Source: Thermococcus argininiproducens (GTDB taxonomy: Archaea > Methanobacteriota_B > Thermococci > Thermococcales > Thermococcaceae). Taken from it: a DNA stretch of 64,000 nt. The position numbers were made by a program, and so were the translations under genes. Each line of letters begins with the position of its first letter. Position 1 is the first letter of the stretch. Positions 203-9,582 of this stretch are shown here, one piece after another. The stretch spans positions 1,162,530 to 1,226,529 of the forward strand of contig NZ_CP080572.1 in assembly GCF_023746595.1 (NCBI RefSeq), read 5' to 3'. Below the pieces are notes generated by a model, which saw only the letters and a list, made by a program, of their open reading frames with translations, searched no databases and was not told where the DNA came from.

Positions 203-1210
203 TCAATAATCTTTTTCCAAAAACTCCTTCAACACTTTAATCAGCTCGTCGTTTTCCTCCTTTCTGCCTACGGTAACCCTTATGTGACCGTCCAGCCTTC
301 CACCAAGCTTTCTCACCACGATACCTCTATCAAGAAGAAATTCATAGGCATTCAAGCACATAAGCAGAAAGTTTGCTTCGCTTGGATATGCGTGGTCTTT
401 GAACTCTTTGTAAATCCTTTCGCGCTCTTTAATTATGTAATTGATGTTTTGTTTAACTAAATCATAATGGTCAAGCATAAGCTCTGCTATCTTCATTGAA
501 AGAGAGTTCAGCGCAAAGGGGGTTTTGATTCGGTGAAGATAGTCTATTATCTCTTTACTTGCGACTGCATAACCAACCCTAATCCCGGCAAGCCCAAAAG
601 CCTTTGAGAATGTTCTCAGAACTATTAAATTGTCGTAGTCATTGACCAAATCAACGTTACTGCTCTTTGCAAACTCTATATACGCTTCATCTAAAACCAC
701 GGGGACACCGGTTTCAAGGACGCTTATTATCTTTTCCCTCTCTTGAGTGTTGCCCGTGGGGTTGTTTGGAGAGCAGATAAAGATAGTCTTGGCGTTTTCT
801 GCATAATCCTCGATGTTCTGGAGCTTAAAGCGTTCATCCAATGGAACATCAACTAAATCAATCCCCTCCAGCTTTGCAAAGAAGTCATACATTCCAAAGG
901 TCGGGGAACTTATGACTATGTTCTCTCCTTCAAAGAGCTTCAAAATTAGGCTTATCAGTTCGTCACTCCCGTTTCCAACTATTACGTTTTCCTTTTCAAA
1001 CCCTAAAAACTCGGCTATCCTCTCTCTTAAAGGATCAGAGGTGATGTGTGGATAGCGGTTGAAGGGGAGGTTTTTAAGCTCTTCGAAGATTTCTTCCTTA
1101 ATCTCCGCCGGAACATCAAAGGGGTTCTCGTTCTTATCGAGCCAGATTCTATAGTTTCCCTCTAAAACATTATACGGCTTAAAGTCCTTAACTACTCCAC
1201 TGACCTTCAC
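203..1210 (-). CDS. hisC: Histidinol-phosphate aminotransferase
   Basis: A PLP-dependent class I/II aminotransferase that converts imidazole-acetol phosphate plus glutamate to histidinol phosphate. The 335 aa show SPNNPTGN at about 147-154, LDEAYIEF at 173-180 and the Schiff-base lysine in TFSKAFG (K203). The start is GTG at 1210. It overlaps the hisIE stop in a GTGA arrangement, with a strong GGGGGAGGAG SD inside the hisIE end, so translation is probably coupled. It is the last of the core his genes in the operon. Length is normal for the short archaeal form. Confidence 0.96.
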   Translation of the reverse strand: MKVSGVVKDFKPYNVLEGNYRIWLDKNENPFDVPAEIKEEIFEELKNLPFNRYPHITSDPLRERIAEFLGFEKENVIVGNGSDELISLILKLFEGENIVISSPTFGMYDFFAKLEGIDLVDVPLDERFKLQNIEDYAENAKTIFICSPNNPTGNTQEREKIISVLETGVPVVLDEAYIEFAKSSNVDLVNDYDNLIVLRTFSKAFGLAGIRVGYAVASKEIIDYLHRIKTPFALNSLSMKIAELMLDHYDLVKQNINYIIKERERIYKEFKDHAYPSEANFLLMCLNAYEFLLDRGIVVRKLGGRLDGHIRVTVGRKEENDELIKVLKEFLEKDY

Positions 1211-1839
1211 CTTCTCCTCCCCCTAAGCTCCTTCATAACCTCACCTAGGCTTATCCCATTATAAGCGAGCAAAACTAAGAGGTGATAGATTAAATCAGCC
1301 GTTTCATATATTATTCTCTCTCTTTCTTCAGCGACCAAAACTTCCACTGCTTCTTCCCCGAATTTCTTGTATATCTTCTCTTTCCCCTCTTTGAAAAGTC
1401 TTGAAGTGTAGGAACCTTCTTTTGGATTTTCTTTGCGCTGCTTTATGACCTCCTCAAGCTCCCTCAAAATTGTCAACGAATAGTCAATCCCCCCAACTTC
1501 CCTCTCTGGTTCTCCTAATTTCCTGTAAAAGCAACTTCTATTGCTGGTGTGGCAGGCTACGCCAACCTGCTCAACTATTAAAAGCAAAGCATCACTGTCG
1601 CAGTCTATCTTTATCTCTTTGACTTTTTGAACGTTCCCGCTAACCTCGCCTTTCATCCTAATTCTCCTTTGACTCCTTGAATAATAATATGCATAACCAG
1701 TCTCTAATGTCTTTCTCAGCGCTTCCTCATTCATATAAGCCAGAGTCAAAACCTCTCCATCAACGCTCTGCACAATAACCGGAACTATTTCGCTCTTCTT
1801 CCAGTCAACTTGCTTTATAAGCTCATTCAAGTCTGACAT
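1207..1839 (-). CDS. hisIE: Phosphoribosyl-AMP cyclohydrolase / phosphoribosyl-ATP pyrophosphatase fusion
   Basis: A bifunctional protein of 210 aa. Residues 1-115 are the HisI cyclohydrolase, with metal-ligand motif C80-D81-x-D83, then C96-H97 and C103. Residues from ~119 to the end are the HisE pyrophosphohydrolase, an all-alpha MazG-like domain ([21 protein letters not shown], then the [10 protein letters not shown] helix). It carries out steps 2 and 3 of histidine synthesis. The ATG at 1839 overlaps the hisF end by 17 bp, and the SD GGAGGGG lies inside hisF. The fusion order I-E is the common one in bacteria and in several archaea. Confidence 0.96.
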
Positions 1840-2578
1840 TCACACCCCTCCTCGCTAAATACTTCTTAAGCTCTCTAACGGTGTACTTCCCATAGTGAAA
1901 GATTGATGCAGCCAAAGCCGCGCTAGCTCCAATTTCAAACGCTTCGTAGAAGTGCTCTGGACTTCCGGCACCTCCAGAGGCAATAACGGGAATGTCAACA
2001 GCTTCAACTATTGCCTTAGTTAGGGGTATATCAAAGCCCTCCTGCGTTCCGTCCGTGTCCATAGAAGTGAGCAAAATTTCACCAGCTCCCAAACATTCGA
2101 CCTCTTTAGCCCAGTCTACTGCATCTATCCCTCTCGCTTTTCTTCCTCCGTGAGTATAAACCTCCCAAAACTTCCCATTCCACTTTGCATCAATTGCTAT
2201 CACCAGATTTGCGGAGCCAACAACTTTTGCCACTTCGCTTACAAGCTTTGGATTGTCAACAGCTGCCGTGTTGAGGAAAACTTTATCGGCACCGCTCTTT
2301 ATTATTTCTCTAATCTCCTCGATGCTCTTAATCCCTCCCCCAACCGTGAAGGGGACATAAATCTCCTCGGCTATCCTCTTTACCAAATCGAGGAGAATTT
2401 GCCTTTTTTCGTGTGATGCTGTAATGTCGAGGAAAACTATCTCATCTATTCCCTCCTCCTCATAGCGCTTTGCCAGCTCTACTGGATCTCCGGCATCTCT
2501 GATATTCTGAAACTTTATTCCCTTTACAACTCTTCCCTCTTTTATGTCCAGAGCTGCGATAATCCTTTTAGCGAGCAT
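1823..2578 (-). CDS. hisF: Imidazole glycerol phosphate synthase, cyclase subunit
   Basis: A (beta-alpha)8-barrel cyclase that uses ammonia delivered by HisH to turn PRFAR into imidazole glycerol phosphate and AICAR. The preferred start is ATG at 2578, which overlaps the hisA stop as TGATG and has SD GGAGGT six bases upstream; a GTG one codon earlier is possible. With this start the two catalytic aspartates fall at D11 (AALDIKEG) and D130 (AIDAKW), as in characterised HisF proteins. The phosphate-binding loops ([13 protein letters not shown]) are visible. Confidence 0.96.
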
Positions 2579-3261
2579 CACAATACCTCCAAAATCTCTT
2601 CTAAGCTTATTTTCTCTTCATAGAGAGCTTTTCCAACTATTGCTCCAGAAAATCCGATTTCTTTTAGCTTTAGGATATCTTCAACGCTTGAAACTCCACC
2701 GGCATAGATGAACTCCTCTCTGCCCCAGAAGCGCTCTATTTTTTCAATTCCCGTTAATGTGCCGTCCTTTTCTATTGCCGTGTAAATGAACCTATTAACG
2801 TATTTTCTAAGCATTTCGTAGGCTTCCTCAACACTTATTGAGCTCTCCTCTTCCCAGCCTTTTACAGCTATCCTTCCGCCTCTGGCATCTAAGCTTACAG
2901 TTATCCCTCCAAAATCCTGCGTTACCTTTTCTAAAAACCCCAAATCAAAGGCTTTCGTGCCTATTATGACGTTCTCAACGCCAATTGAGTAGGCTTTCGC
3001 TATGCTCTCATAGTCCCTAAAGCCTCCACCTACTTGAATCTTCAGCCCCGTCTCCTCTATTATTCCCCTCACGATGTCGAGATTCTTTGGCTTTCCTTCA
3101 AAGGCCCCATCCAAGTCAACGACGTGTATCTTATCGAGAAGCTTAGCAAAATCCTTAGCTATCTCTACTGGATCTCCATAAACTTTTACGCTCTCTTTTT
3201 TACCCTTGTAGAGCCTCACAGCTTTCCCGCTCATTAAATCTATTGCAGGGTAAACCCTCAT
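2578..3261 (-). CDS. hisA: Phosphoribosylformimino-5-aminoimidazole carboxamide ribotide isomerase
   Basis: A barrel enzyme paralogous to HisF; it isomerises ProFAR to PRFAR. D8 in PAIDLMSG and D125 in SLDARGGR are the expected catalytic pair, and QVGGGFRD (76-83) and YAGGVSS are the phosphate loops. 227 aa, slightly shorter than bacterial HisA. It starts one base after the hisH stop and shares a base with hisF, so it sits in the middle of a coupled block. Confidence 0.95.
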
Positions 3262-3262
3262 C

Positions 3263-3850
3263 TCACAGCCTCCTGAAGTTTTCTAAAAGCTTCAACCCAT
3301 TTTTGCTCGACTTTTCTGGGTGAAACTGAACTCCAAAGACATTATCTTTGCAAACTGCCGATGGAAAGACTACTTCCTTTCCCTTTGACTCATAGTCCGT
3401 TATAGCTGCAATCAGTTCTTTGTCTTGGGGATTTACATAGTAGGAGTGCACGAAGTAGAAGTAGCTCCCGCTTTTGACTCCCTCAAAGAGTGGGCACTCT
3501 TTAGCAGGAAAAACTTGATTCCAGCCTATGTGGGGAACTCTAACGCCTCTAAATTTCACTACATTGCCCCTAAAGACTCCCAAGCCTTCTCCCTCGCTTT
3601 CTTCGCTCCACTCAAATAAAAGCTGCATCCCTAAGCATATACCAAGGAATGGCTTTCCTTCATTGATCGCATCTAAGATCGTCCCTTTTAGAGGCTCAAG
3701 CCTTTTCATTACTGCTCCAAAGTTCCCCACTCCTGGAAGCACAATTTTATCAGCCCTCTCAATCTCATAGGGGTCGCTCGTGACTGTTCCACCTAAGGCT
3801 TTTCTAACATTTGCCAGATTCCCAATCCCTAAATCCACTATGGCTATCAT
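3263..3850 (-). CDS. hisH: Imidazole glycerol phosphate synthase, glutamine amidotransferase subunit
   Basis: A class I glutamine amidotransferase that feeds ammonia to HisF. C72 in GICLGMQ is the nucleophile, and H177/E179 in QFHPEKS complete the triad. The oxyanion region PGVGNFG is at 39-45. 195 aa, standard for HisH. The ATG at 3850 overlaps the hisB stop by one base, so the two are probably translated in a coupled way. hisH-hisA-hisF order puts the synthase subunits on either side of the isomerase that supplies their substrate. Confidence 0.95.
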   Translation of the reverse strand: MIAIVDLGIGNLANVRKALGGTVTSDPYEIERADKIVLPGVGNFGAVMKRLEPLKGTILDAINEGKPFLGICLGMQLLFEWSEESEGEGLGVFRGNVVKFRGVRVPHIGWNQVFPAKECPLFEGVKSGSYFYFVHSYYVNPQDKELIAAITDYESKGKEVVFPSAVCKDNVFGVQFHPEKSSKNGLKLLENFRRL

Positions 3851-4380
3851 TACAACACCCCTTTCGTGCTCTCCAAACGCTCGCTCTCACTTAAGGCCTG
3901 TCTTAGGGCAATCCCAAGTCCTTTAAAGGTCGCTTCAACTATGTGGTGGGCATTAACTCCGCTCAGTTGCTTCACGTGAATTGTAGCATTAAGAGTCCTT
4001 GCTAAAGCCCAGAGGAACTCCCTAACTAAAGTGAGCTCAAATCCTTCTTCGCTCTCTTTGAAATCAAGCTCGAGGTTTAGGTAAGATCTCGAGATATCTA
4101 CAGCAACCAGGACTAATGCATCATCCATCGGCATTATTGCATTCCCAAAGCGCGCTATTTTCTTGCCCTTAATTTTCTCCCTAAGCTCTTCTCCAAGGAC
4201 TATGCCCAAATCCTCCCATAGGTGATGTCTTAAGTCCCACTCAGCGCTCACGTTAACAGCTTCACGCATGTAAAAGAATAAAGCAGTGAGGAGGTGGTCA
4301 AAGACTTTATCGCCAGTCTTTATTCCTCCCTCACTGCCGAGCTCAACAGTTATGTCCGTTTCTCTTGTTTTGCGCCTCAT
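3850..4380 (-). CDS. hisB: Imidazoleglycerol-phosphate dehydratase
   Basis: A Mn-dependent dehydratase converting imidazole glycerol phosphate to imidazole-acetol phosphate. The two metal-binding histidine motifs are recognisable but diverged: RHHLWEDLGI at about 51-60 (usually HHTxEDxxI) and NAHHIVEATFK near 143. The first FDHLLTALFFY segment replaces the usual FDHML. 176 aa, a little short for the family (about 190-200), with trimmed loops. It lies six bases after hisD. No fused phosphatase domain is present, in keeping with a separate HAD phosphatase. Confidence 0.94.
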   Translation of the reverse strand: MRRKTRETDITVELGSEGGIKTGDKVFDHLLTALFFYMREAVNVSAEWDLRHHLWEDLGIVLGEELREKIKGKKIARFGNAIMPMDDALVLVAVDISRSYLNLELDFKESEEGFELTLVREFLWALARTLNATIHVKQLSGVNAHHIVEATFKGLGIALRQALSESERLESTKGVL

Positions 4381-4385
4381 AAATA

Positions 4386-5519
4386 CTACCTCCTTATTTC
4401 CATGCTCCTCTTGTGTTGTTCCATGCCCTCGATCTCCGCTAAGCGAATCCCCAAATATCTCTCTGCCAAAAACTCCTCCCTGCTCACGTAGGCTAAGCTT
4501 ATCCTCTTCATAAAGTCCATAACCGTTAAAACCGAGCTGAACTTAGCCGCTCCACCCGTTGGAAGGACGTGATTGACTCCCAAGAAGTAATCCGCTGCTG
4601 GAACCGGTGTGTACTCTCCCAAATAAATCGCCCCGGCATTTTCGATTAAGTCCACAAGCTTTAGAGGCTCTTTTGTGAGTATCTCCAAGTGCTCTGGAGC
4701 AATCTCATTGACCTTTTCCGCACACTCCTCTAAGCTTTCGCACAGGACAACCTTAACGCCCTCCTTGTTGCAGTATTCTGCTAACTCTTTTGAAGTCGTG
4801 AGGAGCCAAGCCTTTGAGTCTTTTCCGTGCTCTAATTGGGAGATCAGATCAGCCAAGACATAATCTTTATTTGCACTTTCATCGGCTATTACTGCTATCT
4901 CCGAAGGGCCAGCTAAGCTGTCAATCCCAACAGCACCAAAGACCTGCCTCTTAGCTTCATTCACGAACTTGTTCCCGGGGCCAAAGATTTTGTCCACTTT
5001 CTTCATTCCAATGCCGTAGGCCATTGCTCCAATCGCTTGGATTCCACCGAGCTTGTAGACCTCTTTAATGCCGAGGAGCTTTGCAACGTAGAGGACGTAT
5101 GGGTTGACTTTCCCATCTTTCGGCGGTATGGTAACAACTATCTCTCTAACGCCAGCTATCTTAGCCGGAACTCCAGTCATTATGAGTGATGAGGGGAGAG
5201 GTTTTCCTCCCGGGACATAGATTCCTATCCTCCTAATTGGCTTGTAGATTATGCCGTAAAGCGATGCGTTCTTTATGTAAAGTTTGTCGTTTTCAAGCTG
5301 TTTCTCGTGGTATTCTCTAACGCGCTCGATAATCCTTGCGATTACTTGCTTGTCTTCCTCTGGAATCAGCCTCTCAGCTTCTTCAAACTCTTCCTCTCTC
5401 ACCAAGAACTCTCCATCGTAGCCGTCAAACTTCCTTGAGTACTCTCTAATAGCATCAATACCTCTTTTTTGTATATCTCTTAAGATTTGGGCTACATAAC
5501 TCTCTAATTCAAAACTCAT
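4386..5519 (-). CDS. hisD: Histidinol dehydrogenase
   Basis: A zinc- and NAD-dependent four-electron oxidase making L-histidine from histidinol. Seen: a Rossmann-like core, [22 protein letters not shown] (zinc ligands Q and H) and APEHLEIL (catalytic and ligand histidine). I chose ATG at 5519 (377 aa), which has a GGAG SD nine bases upstream. Two in-frame TTG codons at 5528 and 5525 touch the SD and are unlikely. It overlaps the end of hisG by 11 bp. Shorter than the ~430 aa of bacterial HisD, as is common in Thermococcales. Confidence 0.95.
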
Positions 5520-6126
5520 CTTCAACAACTCCTTTAAGTTTTAAAATAAGGCCATTAATCTCTTCAAATCTGGTTTTTTGGCATATTCTATTTACTATAA
5601 GAACTGCTGAAATATCCATTATTTTTTCCAATTCAATTAGGCCATTAGCCAGTAATGTATTTCCAGTTTCAACGATATCAACTATGGCATCGGCTATTCC
5701 AATTTTTGGAGCTAGTTCAGTGCTTCCGTGTAGTTTTATTATTTCTACTTCGATACCCTTCTCATTAAAGAATTTTCTAGTGAGGTTAGTGTACTTGGTG
5801 GCAATTCTAAATCCATCCATTTCCTCAACTTTTACACTTTTTTCCTTTGGGATGGCTAGGCTAAGCCTACATTTACCAAAGGGTAGTTCAAGGGGAACAA
5901 ATACGTCGCTTTCTCTCTCTTCTACAATGTCGCTTCCAGCTATGCCAATGTCGATTCCATGCTCCACATAAACTGGGACATCAAAGGATTTTGCAAGCAA
6001 AAAGCTGTATTCTCCATTTTTAGTCATTAATTCGCGACCCTGGGGTAGTCTCACCTCTATACCAGCTTTTTGTAATATCTCCACAGAGCCTGTTAAAAGA
6101 CGACCCTTTGGAAGAACGAACCTCAT
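5509..6126 (-). CDS. hisG: ATP phosphoribosyltransferase, short form catalytic subunit
   Basis: The first committed enzyme of histidine synthesis, joining PRPP and ATP. 205 aa, so the short form lacking the C-terminal ACT-like regulatory domain; such HisG needs HisZ as partner and regulator. Seen: VLPKGRLL at the N terminus, GIAGSDIV (about 62-69) and the PRPP-binding stretch [15 protein letters not shown] (about 144-158). It overlaps hisZ by 4 bp (ATGA). Confidence 0.95.
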
Positions 6127-7013
6127 TTTCTCACCTCCACTGGTATTCCAAGTCTTACAAGCTGTTTTGCTTTGTTATAGGCCTCTTTAAGCTCTCCACT
6201 AATAATTTTCCTAGTTTTTTCTAGGTCTCCTTCGTAAAGCTTTAGAATGGCTTTTAAGTCAAAAGCGAATCCAAATGCTTTCATGCCTTTAATCTCGTAT
6301 TCTCCCCCGCCTCCAATAGGTTTTCCAAATTTTGGTGAGTATACTTCGAAGATAATGTCACTGTAATATGGAAGAATTCTAATAGTTCCAAAATCCACAA
6401 AGACCCTTTTATCATCAACTGCTTCAATTATCTTGTTTAATTTTTGGTATTCACACTTCTTTCCTCTGAAGTTGAAAAGCTTCCAAAGTTCTTCCTTTTT
6501 TGCTGAAGGTATGGGGAGACCTTCTATTTTTTCAAAGTTCCGTCTACTTAATGCAGTAATTATCTGGGGTTTATACTCTTCTATTCCCTTCAGGGCTCTT
6601 TTCCACACTTCCAAACTGCCTACATCAATGTAGAACTCGTTTATTCCGAGGCTTTCCAATGCTGTTATTGCAATTAATATTCCTTCAACTTGTACCATCA
6701 AATCATTCCCGCCAATGAACTCAATTCCAGCTTGCCATTCTCCTTTTGTTGTTCCGTTGAGAACCTCAAGGATGTAGTAGAGCTTTAGCTCTCTTTTCTC
6801 TTTTAAATTTGCAAGGATTTGGGACGTTGGATCTGGTTTGAACATATAGAATTTATTGTTATATGCAAACTTTGTACCTTTCCTTAAATTGGGGGAATAT
6901 TCTTCCACACTAGGTAGGAATATTTCCTTATACCCCCAAAGCTCAAAGGTTCTCCTTAAGTTTTTTACAGTATACGCTAACCTAACTGATTCGGAAAATA
7001 AGTCTTTTTTCAA
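6123..7013 (-). CDS. hisZ: ATP phosphoribosyltransferase regulatory subunit (HisRS-like), TTG start
   Basis: A histidyl-tRNA-synthetase paralogue that forms the HisG/HisZ complex and carries histidine feedback control. 296 aa. The class II synthetase fold is seen as [25 protein letters not shown] and [24 protein letters not shown] (motif 2 region), but there is no anticodon domain and the usual HisRS active-site signatures are weak. The start codon is TTG at 7013, with a very strong SD, AGGAGGGG (7027-7020), six bases upstream. There is no usable ATG nearby. A run of seven T lies between SD and start. First structural gene of the operon, 80 bp after a short leader ORF. Confidence 0.9.
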
Positions 7014-7034
7014 AAAAATCCCCTCCTGTGAGCT
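7012..7034 (-). promoter_or_regulatory. hisZ ribosome-binding site with adjacent T7 tract and complementary segment
   Basis: On the minus strand this reads AGCTCAC (7034-7028), SD AGGAGGGG (7027-7020), A, then seven T (7018-7012) that run into the TTG start. AGCTCAC is exactly complementary to GTGAGCT at 7117-7111 inside the upstream leader ORF, and six of its bases also match the leader ORF's own SD (GTGAGC, 7207-7202). The T tract is the kind of sequence at which archaeal RNA polymerase can terminate. A switch in RNA folding or termination is inferred, not shown. Confidence 0.5.
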
Positions 7035-7093
7035 TTAAAATGAATTTCAATTTCAACAGTGGATCTAAGTTAGTCTTAATTATAGAAGAGTTG

Positions 7094-7198
7094 TCAATGA
7101 TGATGGCAGTAGCTCACCATAAAAACTACTGAAAATACATCCTCTCTATCCTGGACATTTGCAAAGTTTTTCGTATTGTTTTCATTCCAAACTTTCAT
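7094..7198 (-). CDS. Candidate histidine leader peptide (34 aa, ends His-His-His)
   Basis: A short ORF upstream of and parallel to hisZ: ATG at 7198, TGA at 7094-7096. It has a textbook Thermococcales SD, AGGTGAG (7209-7203), four bases before the ATG. The last eight residues are MVSYCHHH, with three consecutive CAT codons directly before the stop. No homology is recognised and the rest is hydrophilic (many N, K, D, E). A TATA box sits 33-42 bases upstream of the ATG, so it is probably the first translated unit of the his mRNA. The position and the terminal His run match bacterial his leader peptides. A random ORF remains possible, though the SD plus a His triplet at the very end makes chance less likely. 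Confidence 0.6.
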   Translation of the reverse strand: MKVWNENNTKNFANVQDREDVFSVVFMVSYCHHH

Positions 7199-7230
7199 AT
7201 TGCTCACCTACGGGGGAAAGGATTCTTAAG

Positions 7231-7247
7231 CCTTATAAACTTTATGG
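7231..7247 (-). promoter_or_regulatory. Probable his operon promoter (TATA/BRE)
   Basis: Minus strand CCATAAAGTTTATAAGG: a TATA-like GTTTATAAG with a purine/A-rich upstream BRE-like part. About 25 bases downstream would be a start site near 7211, giving a leader of only about a dozen bases before the leader ORF. Confidence 0.5.
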
Positions 7248-7404
7248 AGAAAATCAACGAACTTAACCTGGATCCATTTAGATTTTAAAGAGACCAGAGG
7301 AAGTATTGTTATAGGCTCTAAAAAACGATAAAGGGAGAATCTCTTTTACTAGGCGAAAAATTTTTGTAAACTATTCTTGTAGAATATTATATGGGGTGTT
7401 ATTC

Positions 7405-9582
7405 ATGCAAAAACACCTAAAAGTAATTTTTGTAATTGCTTTATTGTTTTTCTCAAGTATGTGCATAGGCAAGAAGGAGACATTAACGACAAACTCCTCA
7501 GTTCCTATTCTAGAAACATCCGAGAAAGATCTCTACTCCACTTGGCTTAGAAATGAAACCAGATATTTTACGATTTATTATCCAAAAATTAAGGAAGAGG
7601 GATTTAATTTCAACATCAGGTATCTTCTAGTAGGGATTGACTATGTTTACGAAAGTTACTCAAAAGCTTTTGGAAAAACTTCAGAAAAGATTGAACTCTA
7701 TATTTATCCAAGTGAAGTGGAGTTAAAGTTTGATTATCCAACAGAACTTCCATGGTATATTGAGGGAAACAAGATATTTACCTTTATTGAGATGGATACA
7801 AAGAGTTTTAACTACTACAGAGTGGAAAGTGCTTTGATAGCGTATTTAACTGGAAAAGTAAACGGATTGACCTTTGTATTTCCGTTTTTGGGTGATTTTT
7901 ACTTTAGAGGAGCAGATGACCTCAAAGATGTATCTTTTGAGGAACTTCTTTCCCTAGCTGATAGTCAGAATATCGATGAGGTCATGGATTACAAGGACAA
8001 CATAATTGATTTTGTGGGTTTTCTTGTGCATAGATATGGGGTTGAAGAAGTTTTGAAGCTTCTTGAGAGTGATAGTCCTTCTAAAATAATAAGAGAGCTA
8101 CCCAACGTTAAGGGGGAATATGAAAGGTTTGTTGAGTGGTTTTGGGGTGGGGGGATAATAGATGGGTTACTTGAAATTAAGGACATAAACTTGACAGTTG
8201 TTCTTGAAGAAGAAAAGGCGTTTTTCTTGGCAAATGAGAGTATTAAAGTGAGCTACCTAAAGAAATACTACCCATTCTTTGTCAAAAGCGTCTATCTCAA
8301 TATAAGAGGAATGAGCACTCAATATTTGCAAAGTTTTTCTTTTCTGCTTCCCTATGAACAGAGAGAGACTTATGAAATATCTTATATCGGAAACTACAGC
8401 ATTCAACCATTAACGTATGATGAGGATATTCATTATGCACTTTCTGGAAAGTTTATAATCCCCAACATGACTCTTATTGGCAATGCTCATTTATTCCCTC
8501 AGCCTGTGGGCCAATATCTCCCCCAAGGAAAAATTGAAGTAAAAAGTCAAAATGTAGCTTTTGCAACAACACTACCCAGTCAGGATGTATTCCTTGCAAC
8601 GGGTAAGTTTAAGAGCTTTAAAGGCTTTGTTAATGGAACATCCGTCGAATTTTACTATACTGGAGGTGTAGAGACTCCATCAACAGTGTTTAAACAAGCC
8701 TTGAGTGCTTTTAGATACATAAAAGAATGGTTCGAAGTTCCAACGTCCCAATTTAAGGTTGTTTATACAGAGGAAGGTATTAAAGAAAACATTTACTGGT
8801 CAAGAGATTTGCTTGTTTATAGACCCTGGTGGGGATATCATGAGCGGTATTTTGTAGTGGGGCTCTATCATAGTTGGTTTGATAGTGTAAAAATAAAGCC
8901 AGGTGATATCTGGGTGTTAAGAGGCCTATCCCCACTGTTGGAAGCAGTTCGGCTAGATAAGCTTAAGGATTACAAAGAGAGTGCAGTATATCGTTATAAG
9001 GCAGATTTACGTGATTTTCCCGAATCTGGATACCCACTTGTTGAGAGCTATAAATACTTCTACAGTGATAGACTATGGATGAAGAATTCAATGGTATACA
9101 AGGGTTTCTTAACATTTTATCTCCTCTACACCCACACAGGGGAAGAAGCTTTCAAAGAGACTCTAAGAGAATTTTCTAAGAAAACACTCTTCAAAGAAGC
9201 TGACTTTGAAGACTTTGTAAAACTTCTAGCTGAGAAATTTGGAGACGATAAAGTGCTCTTGATATGGAAAACATGGACAACAAAGCCTGCACTGCCAAAT
9301 CTCACATTGGAAAATGTCGAGATTATGAAAACTGATGCCAATTACACCTTAAAATTCACCTTAGTGGACACAAATGGCTTTGCTTTTCCATTCAAGATTA
9401 TGATAATAGGATGGCAGGGCCAGAGAGTTGAAGTAGAAGGTTTTTATTATGGAAAGCCTCAAGAAGTTGAAATTTTCCTCTCTGGAGAGCCAAAGGAAGT
9501 CGTAATATCTGGAGCACCCTTCCTAAGCAAGAACTTTGACATAGAGGTAAATGGAAGTAAGATATACGTGACTATCCCTTAA
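7405..9582 (+). CDS. Secreted lipoprotein related to M1-type peptidases, catalytic motif lost
   Basis: About 725 aa. ATG at 7405 is preferred (SD GGGGTG six bases before); a GTG at 7396 is in frame. The N terminus is a hydrophobic signal with a lipobox-like SSMC, so it is probably a lipid-anchored extracellular protein. The part around YHSWFDSVKI (about 495) lines up with HEISHSWFGTYV of the peptidase at 36.6-38.3 kb, but the first His and the catalytic Glu are gone, as is the downstream zinc-ligand Glu. It is therefore a likely non-catalytic relative. The 7.2-7.4 kb stretch upstream holds the divergent his promoter. Its 3' end overlaps the next, convergent gene by 11 bp. Function unknown. 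Confidence 0.8.
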   Translation: MQKHLKVIFVIALLFFSSMCIGKKETLTTNSSVPILETSEKDLYSTWLRNETRYFTIYYPKIKEEGFNFNIRYLLVGIDYVYESYSKAFGKTSEKIELYIYPSEVELKFDYPTELPWYIEGNKIFTFIEMDTKSFNYYRVESALIAYLTGKVNGLTFVFPFLGDFYFRGADDLKDVSFEELLSLADSQNIDEVMDYKDNIIDFVGFLVHRYGVEEVLKLLESDSPSKIIRELPNVKGEYERFVEWFWGGGIIDGLLEIKDINLTVVLEEEKAFFLANESIKVSYLKKYYPFFVKSVYLNIRGMSTQYLQSFSFLLPYEQRETYEISYIGNYSIQPLTYDEDIHYALSGKFIIPNMTLIGNAHLFPQPVGQYLPQGKIEVKSQNVAFATTLPSQDVFLATGKFKSFKGFVNGTSVEFYYTGGVETPSTVFKQALSAFRYIKEWFEVPTSQFKVVYTEEGIKENIYWSRDLLVYRPWWGYHERYFVVGLYHSWFDSVKIKPGDIWVLRGLSPLLEAVRLDKLKDYKESAVYRYKADLRDFPESGYPLVESYKYFYSDRLWMKNSMVYKGFLTFYLLYTHTGEEAFKETLREFSKKTLFKEADFEDFVKLLAEKFGDDKVLLIWKTWTTKPALPNLTLENVEIMKTDANYTLKFTLVDTNGFAFPFKIMIIGWQGQRVEVEGFYYGKPQEVEIFLSGEPKEVVISGAPFLSKNFDIEVNGSKIYVTIP

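Follow-up and report, generated by a model that had tools for sequence, protein, structure and literature searches.

Known leader-peptide systems

That bacteria can control amino-acid biosynthesis through leader peptides is textbook knowledge. Among the closest described systems is the enterobacterial hisL (Rfam His_leader), with which the leader found upstream of hisZ in Thermococcaceae shares a short ORF that is preceded by a Shine–Dalgarno (SD) sequence, contains consecutive His codons, lies directly 5' of the first his gene and stops soon after these codons; sensing of charged tRNA-His by ribosome stalling is likewise expected. Unlike hisL, this leader is archaeal, bears 2–4 His codons at its extreme C-terminus instead of 7, lacks terminator and antiterminator hairpins and a U-tract, and instead carries an SD-like site inside the ORF and, on its 3' side, an invariant TTCT tract. 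Neither at the gathering threshold nor at the E-value threshold was any Rfam match obtained, His_leader included. Another example is that of the Firmicutes His-leader attenuators described by comparative genomics, in which a run of three to five His codons also stands upstream of his genes; these, however, have the terminator and antiterminator hairpins that the Thermococcaceae leader does not (PMC9413887). In some bacterial attenuators a structure sequestering the ribosome-binding site takes the place of the terminator (PMC9413887). The output proposed here, a stalled leader ribosome that exposes a downstream SD, is that of translational attenuators of the ermC type, although the signal read by ermCL is a macrolide, by way of the nascent chain, whereas the presumed signal of the His leader is scarcity of the cognate amino acid.

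In Thermococcales themselves, cis-acting RNA control has been proposed for crcB/fluoride and preQ1 riboswitch candidates, which are ligand-binding RNAs and not translated leaders (PMC4247193). In 2014, the transcriptome study of T. kodakarensis stated that neither attenuators nor riboswitches had direct experimental support in vivo in Archaea (PMC4247193), and regulation by uORFs in archaea has been mentioned only in general terms (PMC10219788). In the open literature, no description of an amino-acid leader peptide from an archaeon was found; subscription journals were mostly not covered, and a prior report is possible.

The leader ORF and the his operon of Thermococcus argininiproducens

The window, that is, the whole 64,000-nucleotide stretch of T. 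argininiproducens DNA that was analysed, contains a his operon in the order hisZ-G-D-B-H-A-F-IE-C (Table 1). The eight genes after hisZ score above the NCBIfam cut-offs; hisZ was called from its best model, with a score under the curated cut-off of that model. The original prediction had placed, between a minus-strand TATA box and hisZ, a 34-codon ORF with the SD AGGTGAG four bases from its ATG and with CAT CAT CAT as the last codons before TGA. Each of these elements is indeed present, on the strand of hisZ and behind the TATA box of the operon, at the exact coordinates given in Table 1.

Table 1. Features of the window with their coordinates, and the loci of the second leader family
Feature	Coordinates	Strand	Remarks
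TATA box, TATA-like TTTATAAGG	7231..7239	minus	from sequence
Leader ORF SD AGGTGAG	7203..7209	minus	four bases 5' of ATG
Leader ORF MKVWNENNTKNFANVQDREDVFSVVFMVSYCHHH followed by stop	7094..7198	minus	34 codons; ATG 7198-7196, TGA 7096-7094
Internal SD-like site GGTGAGCT (GGTGA)	7111..7118	minus	5-6 nt before the P-site codon of a ribosome whose A site holds the first His codon
His codons CAT CAT CAT (putatively regulatory)	7097..7105	minus	last three sense codons of the leader ORF
Pyrimidine tract CTCTTCT	7084..7090	minus	just 3' of the stop; candidate anti-SD pairing with hisZ AGGAGGG
AGCTCAC	7028..7034	minus	adjoins hisZ SD; perfect 7-bp complement of leader GTGAGCT; lineage-specific
hisZ SD AGGAGGGG	7020..7027	minus	presumed regulated ribosome-binding site
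hisZ, first structural gene	6123..7013	minus	TTG start 7013; TIGR00443, E 2e-34
hisG-hisD-hisB-hisH-hisA-hisF-hisIE-hisC, remainder of his operon	203..6126	minus	NCBIfam equivalog matches
hisG leader loci of the second family (f3)			L140 (minus), L149, L152, L135, L198 (minus), L199

The leader SD would form a duplex of -8.5 kcal/mol with the archaeal anti-SD at this locus, and that of hisZ a duplex of -11.5 kcal/mol. From the position of the TATA box, transcription is predicted to start at about 7210, which would place the leader ahead of all other ORFs on the his mRNA. Translation of the leader and its co-transcription with the his operon are inferred from SD, reading frame and promoter position.

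Upstream of the his promoter there is a divergent 728-residue ORF (7396-9582, plus strand), without NCBIfam match, whose N-terminus looks lipoprotein-like by eye. The HisZ protein of the window contains no His residue, as is the case for 31 of 35 full-length orthologues; such a His-free HisZ could be made under histidine starvation.

Conservation of the leader across Thermococcaceae

The original prediction could be checked by asking whether relatives, too, keep upstream of hisZ a short ORF that follows an SD and ends in His codons, and this proved to be so without exception. Ninety-four Thermococcaceae genomes were searched, and hisZ is present in 47, covering 6 genera and reaching down to 55% identity; the named genome collection gave few additional loci. 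All 47 hisZ loci have, 24–80 nt upstream of hisZ, a short ORF that finishes, or nearly finishes, with 2–4 His codons in a row, and TATA-like hexamers are clustered 39–48 nt 5' of the leader ATG. Under a strict definition (an ATG with an SD duplex of -6 kcal/mol or lower, 15–36 codons ahead of two or more His codons in a row, and a stop within 6 codons of the first of these), 45/47 orthologous upstream regions qualified, compared with none of 2,820 dinucleotide-preserving shuffles and none of 1,665 control windows, for which both strands were read; the two loci that fail still have an ORF ending in HH. The short ORF before hisZ is real, far beyond chance.

The kept end of the peptide is mostly VSY[C/Y/R]HH(H). 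The C-termini found include VSYCHHH, VSYYHHH, MSYCHHH, VSYRHH, VTYCHHLF (KVTYCHHLF before the stop in locus L022), VSYCHHRLF, RVSLHH and VSPCHHHLF, among others. In a pattern search of all 94 genomes, this C-terminal element, with at most one mismatch, occurred exclusively before hisZ; it was absent from the genomes without hisZ, in which there were at best scattered matches with two mismatches. In a close relative with an incomplete genome (L005, ~1371-1450), the leader stop TGA has become TGC, which extends the peptide to HHHCRLFYN before the next stop, and GTGAAC replaces GTGAGC in the internal SD-like site; this leader is possibly drifting.

The body of the leader has a dN/dS of 0.64, with substitutions spread evenly over codon positions, and the terminus is kept. 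Such drift next to a fixed end is what would be predicted if nothing mattered but translation and the final codons. The His codons themselves are strongly biased, with a CAT:CAC ratio of 115:4 in the leaders versus 161:148 in the ORFs of the window (Fisher 1e-21, uncorrected for shared descent). CAT must be read by the GUG anticodon through wobble. We regard it as almost certain that the ORF has been selected as a His-codon leader and that it is a genuine, family-wide feature. The putative histidine leader peptide of the original prediction is therefore strongly supported, as a cognate-codon leader, by its conservation in 47/47 loci; its regulatory effect remains an inference.

Internal Shine–Dalgarno-like site and pyrimidine tract

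Two further elements surround the His codons. When anti-SD pairing was averaged over loci, a sharp peak of -6.3 kcal/mol was obtained for the 7-mer that begins 14 nt before the first His codon. The codon preceding the conserved Val specifies ten different residues, and its third base is G in 40/47 loci, which gives G-GTG-A in most of them. This internal SD-like site lies at normal SD distance from the codon that occupies the P site once the first His codon has entered the A site, and it is inferred from this spacing that it could hold a ribosome at that position.

The second element is a pyrimidine tract. At every one of the 47 loci it contains TTCT at a distance of 9, 12, 15 or 18 nt downstream of the first His codon, without exception in frame with the His codons; the frequency of TTCT in windows further downstream is 0.23. 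The tract encodes LF where the stop lies beyond it. Since it is also retained at loci whose stop comes earlier, it is probably maintained at the RNA level.

Proposed mechanism and its output

Given the anatomy of the leader and the established bacterial precedent, it is very likely that histidine starvation is sensed by ribosomes stalling on the His codons for want of charged tRNA-His; regulation itself is inferred from sequence alone. In the mechanism that we propose, scarcity of charged tRNA-His would cause the leader ribosome to stall at the His codons, and the internal GGTGA would pair with 16S rRNA at the stall position, aiding the stall. The stalled ribosome would then cover or disrupt the leader segments on both sides (TTCTGGTGAG-like upstream, CTNTTCT downstream); these segments, otherwise paired with the hisZ SD, would be displaced, and hisZ and the operon would be translated. 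When histidine is plentiful, the ribosome would terminate and leave, and the flanking segments would sequester the hisZ SD. Taken as a whole, a translated cis-acting His leader whose stalled ribosome exposes the hisZ SD is the best explanation at hand, and a reasonably probable one.

The output is the less certain part. The same sensing leader might act on transcription, if the stall altered transcription–translation coupling and RNA polymerase, or a factor such as aCPSF1/FttA, terminated or read on in the untranslated stretch before hisZ. Bacterial his leaders do act on transcription (PMC9413887), DNA-attached polysomes have been shown in T. kodakarensis (PMC8116511), and some loci have TTTT or TTTTT tracts 5' of the hisZ SD. 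However, across the 47 loci T runs between leader and hisZ reach no more than 2–5 nt, and no more than 3 in 19/47, and consensus folds made for each clade revealed no conserved hairpin followed by a U-tract in that interval. Moreover, only 24 nt separate the leader stop from the hisZ start in some genomes, which leaves little room for an attenuator, and under simple polarity stalling would lower expression and not raise it. A transcriptional output is held to be unlikely but not negligible. The classic bacterial form of attenuation, by transcription termination, is not supported here, as neither a U-tract nor a terminator hairpin is conserved from leader to hisZ. In the absence of a conserved U-tract terminator, the stall probably acts by exposing the hisZ ribosome-binding site.

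Support for such exposure is partial and uneven. Averaged over loci, the hisZ ribosome-binding site finds its best pairing partners in two leader segments, one on each side of the Tyr-Cys-His codons, but outside clade B this complementarity is weak. In clade B, a helix of ~14 bp is predicted between the second His codon–stop–TTCTG and the SD and start region of hisZ; in the window, the predicted pairings are those of leader GTGAGCT with AGCTCAC and of CTCTTCT with AGGAGGG of hisZ. Masking the stall region decreased the opening cost of the ribosome-binding site by ~1 kcal/mol in clade A and by 2 in clade B, and a sliding mask gave modest, clade-dependent gains in accessibility of the hisZ SD that were clear only in these two clades; in the own lineage of the window, the masked stall site frees the hisZ SD little. 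Clade-level tests of pairing were borderline, with p = 0.08 for the upstream segment and 0.055 for the downstream one, and ~0.15 against reversed-sequence controls, and in single-locus composition shuffles the individual anti-SD duplexes were not significant. Consensus structures were strongest in clades B and P, and no compensatory base changes or covariation that would prove a switch were found in the clade consensus structures. The 5' region of the window, folded alone, is not unusually stable (z -0.5). All folding was done in silico at 37 C, which says little about 80–100 C. Release of the hisZ ribosome-binding site therefore has partial thermodynamic support in these models, without covariation, and is unproven. 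Control of hisZ translation initiation, and not of transcription, remains the leading output on chances that are even or slightly better.

The position of the leader also fits termination–reinitiation, or simple occlusion by ribosomes, with the His run tuning ribosome flow and no RNA switch involved: the distances to hisZ are within the appropriate range, and in clade E the leader stop lies 24 nt from the hisZ start. But reinitiation would increase as histidine does, which is opposite to the response needed in a biosynthetic operon, and the invariant TTCT tract and the internal SD-like site would be left unexplained, which makes this possibility quite improbable. Conservation at the nucleotide level (GGTGAGYTACYRCCATCAT, TTCT) could suggest the RNA- or DNA-binding site of a regulator, the His codons being a by-product. 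An SD, an ATG and an open frame in 47/47 loci speak against a mere binding site, as do in-frame His codons that vary from 2 to 4 and the hisG leader of another family of the class, which ends in the same His run although its sequence is unrelated; the idea can be given very little weight. Least credible of all is a functional microprotein acting in trans, for instance through a metal-binding Cys-His-His-His tail. The peptide end is conserved and such a tail could bind Zn or Ni, but many species have Tyr, Arg or Leu in place of the Cys, and in some cases LF or RLF is added to the tail. Moreover, the body evolves as described above, His is encoded by CAT in particular, and the element is present only before hisZ.

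Leaders in other operons and archaeal groups

A second family of the same class, with long-form HisG, has a different short ORF before hisG in 6/6 genomes (Table 1). These leaders end in HHH, or in HHQ and YHHN in one genome each, and a four-pair stem (CGCC...GGCG), which tolerates C to U changes, follows immediately after the leader stop and abuts the hisG SD. Outside the class, the analysis covered hisG upstream regions only: those of 45 loci in two other phyla of archaea yielded no convincing His leader (one case being doubtful), and those of 30 loci in a further archaeal phylum yielded none. Regarding other amino acids, no Trp leader ORF precedes trpC in 15 Thermococcaceae loci (L086-L100). 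Instead, a TGTCCAAA-type motif, of TGTCCA type, lies close to the promoter of the trp operons at these loci. The ilvC gene was found in only 7 genomes.

Taken together, these data could be read as archaeal cognate-codon control of amino-acid biosynthesis, which in the Thermococcaceae would act on translation initiation and not on transcription termination, by means of an internal SD that holds the His-starved ribosome on the CAT codons and of two anti-SD segments that this ribosome masks, with a separate family having evolved or inherited a hisG leader; we consider this reading an even bet.

Biological significance

The His-ending ORF is kept in 47/47 histidine-making genomes, and for this reason archaea probably have the histidine-sensing leader-peptide control otherwise known from bacteria, apparently without a transcription terminator, the regulation being inferred. 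This conservation makes leader control testable in a genetically tractable archaeon. If true, it would mean that archaea sense amino-acid supply via the translating ribosome without the bacterial terminator, and it would bear on transcription–translation coupling in archaea.
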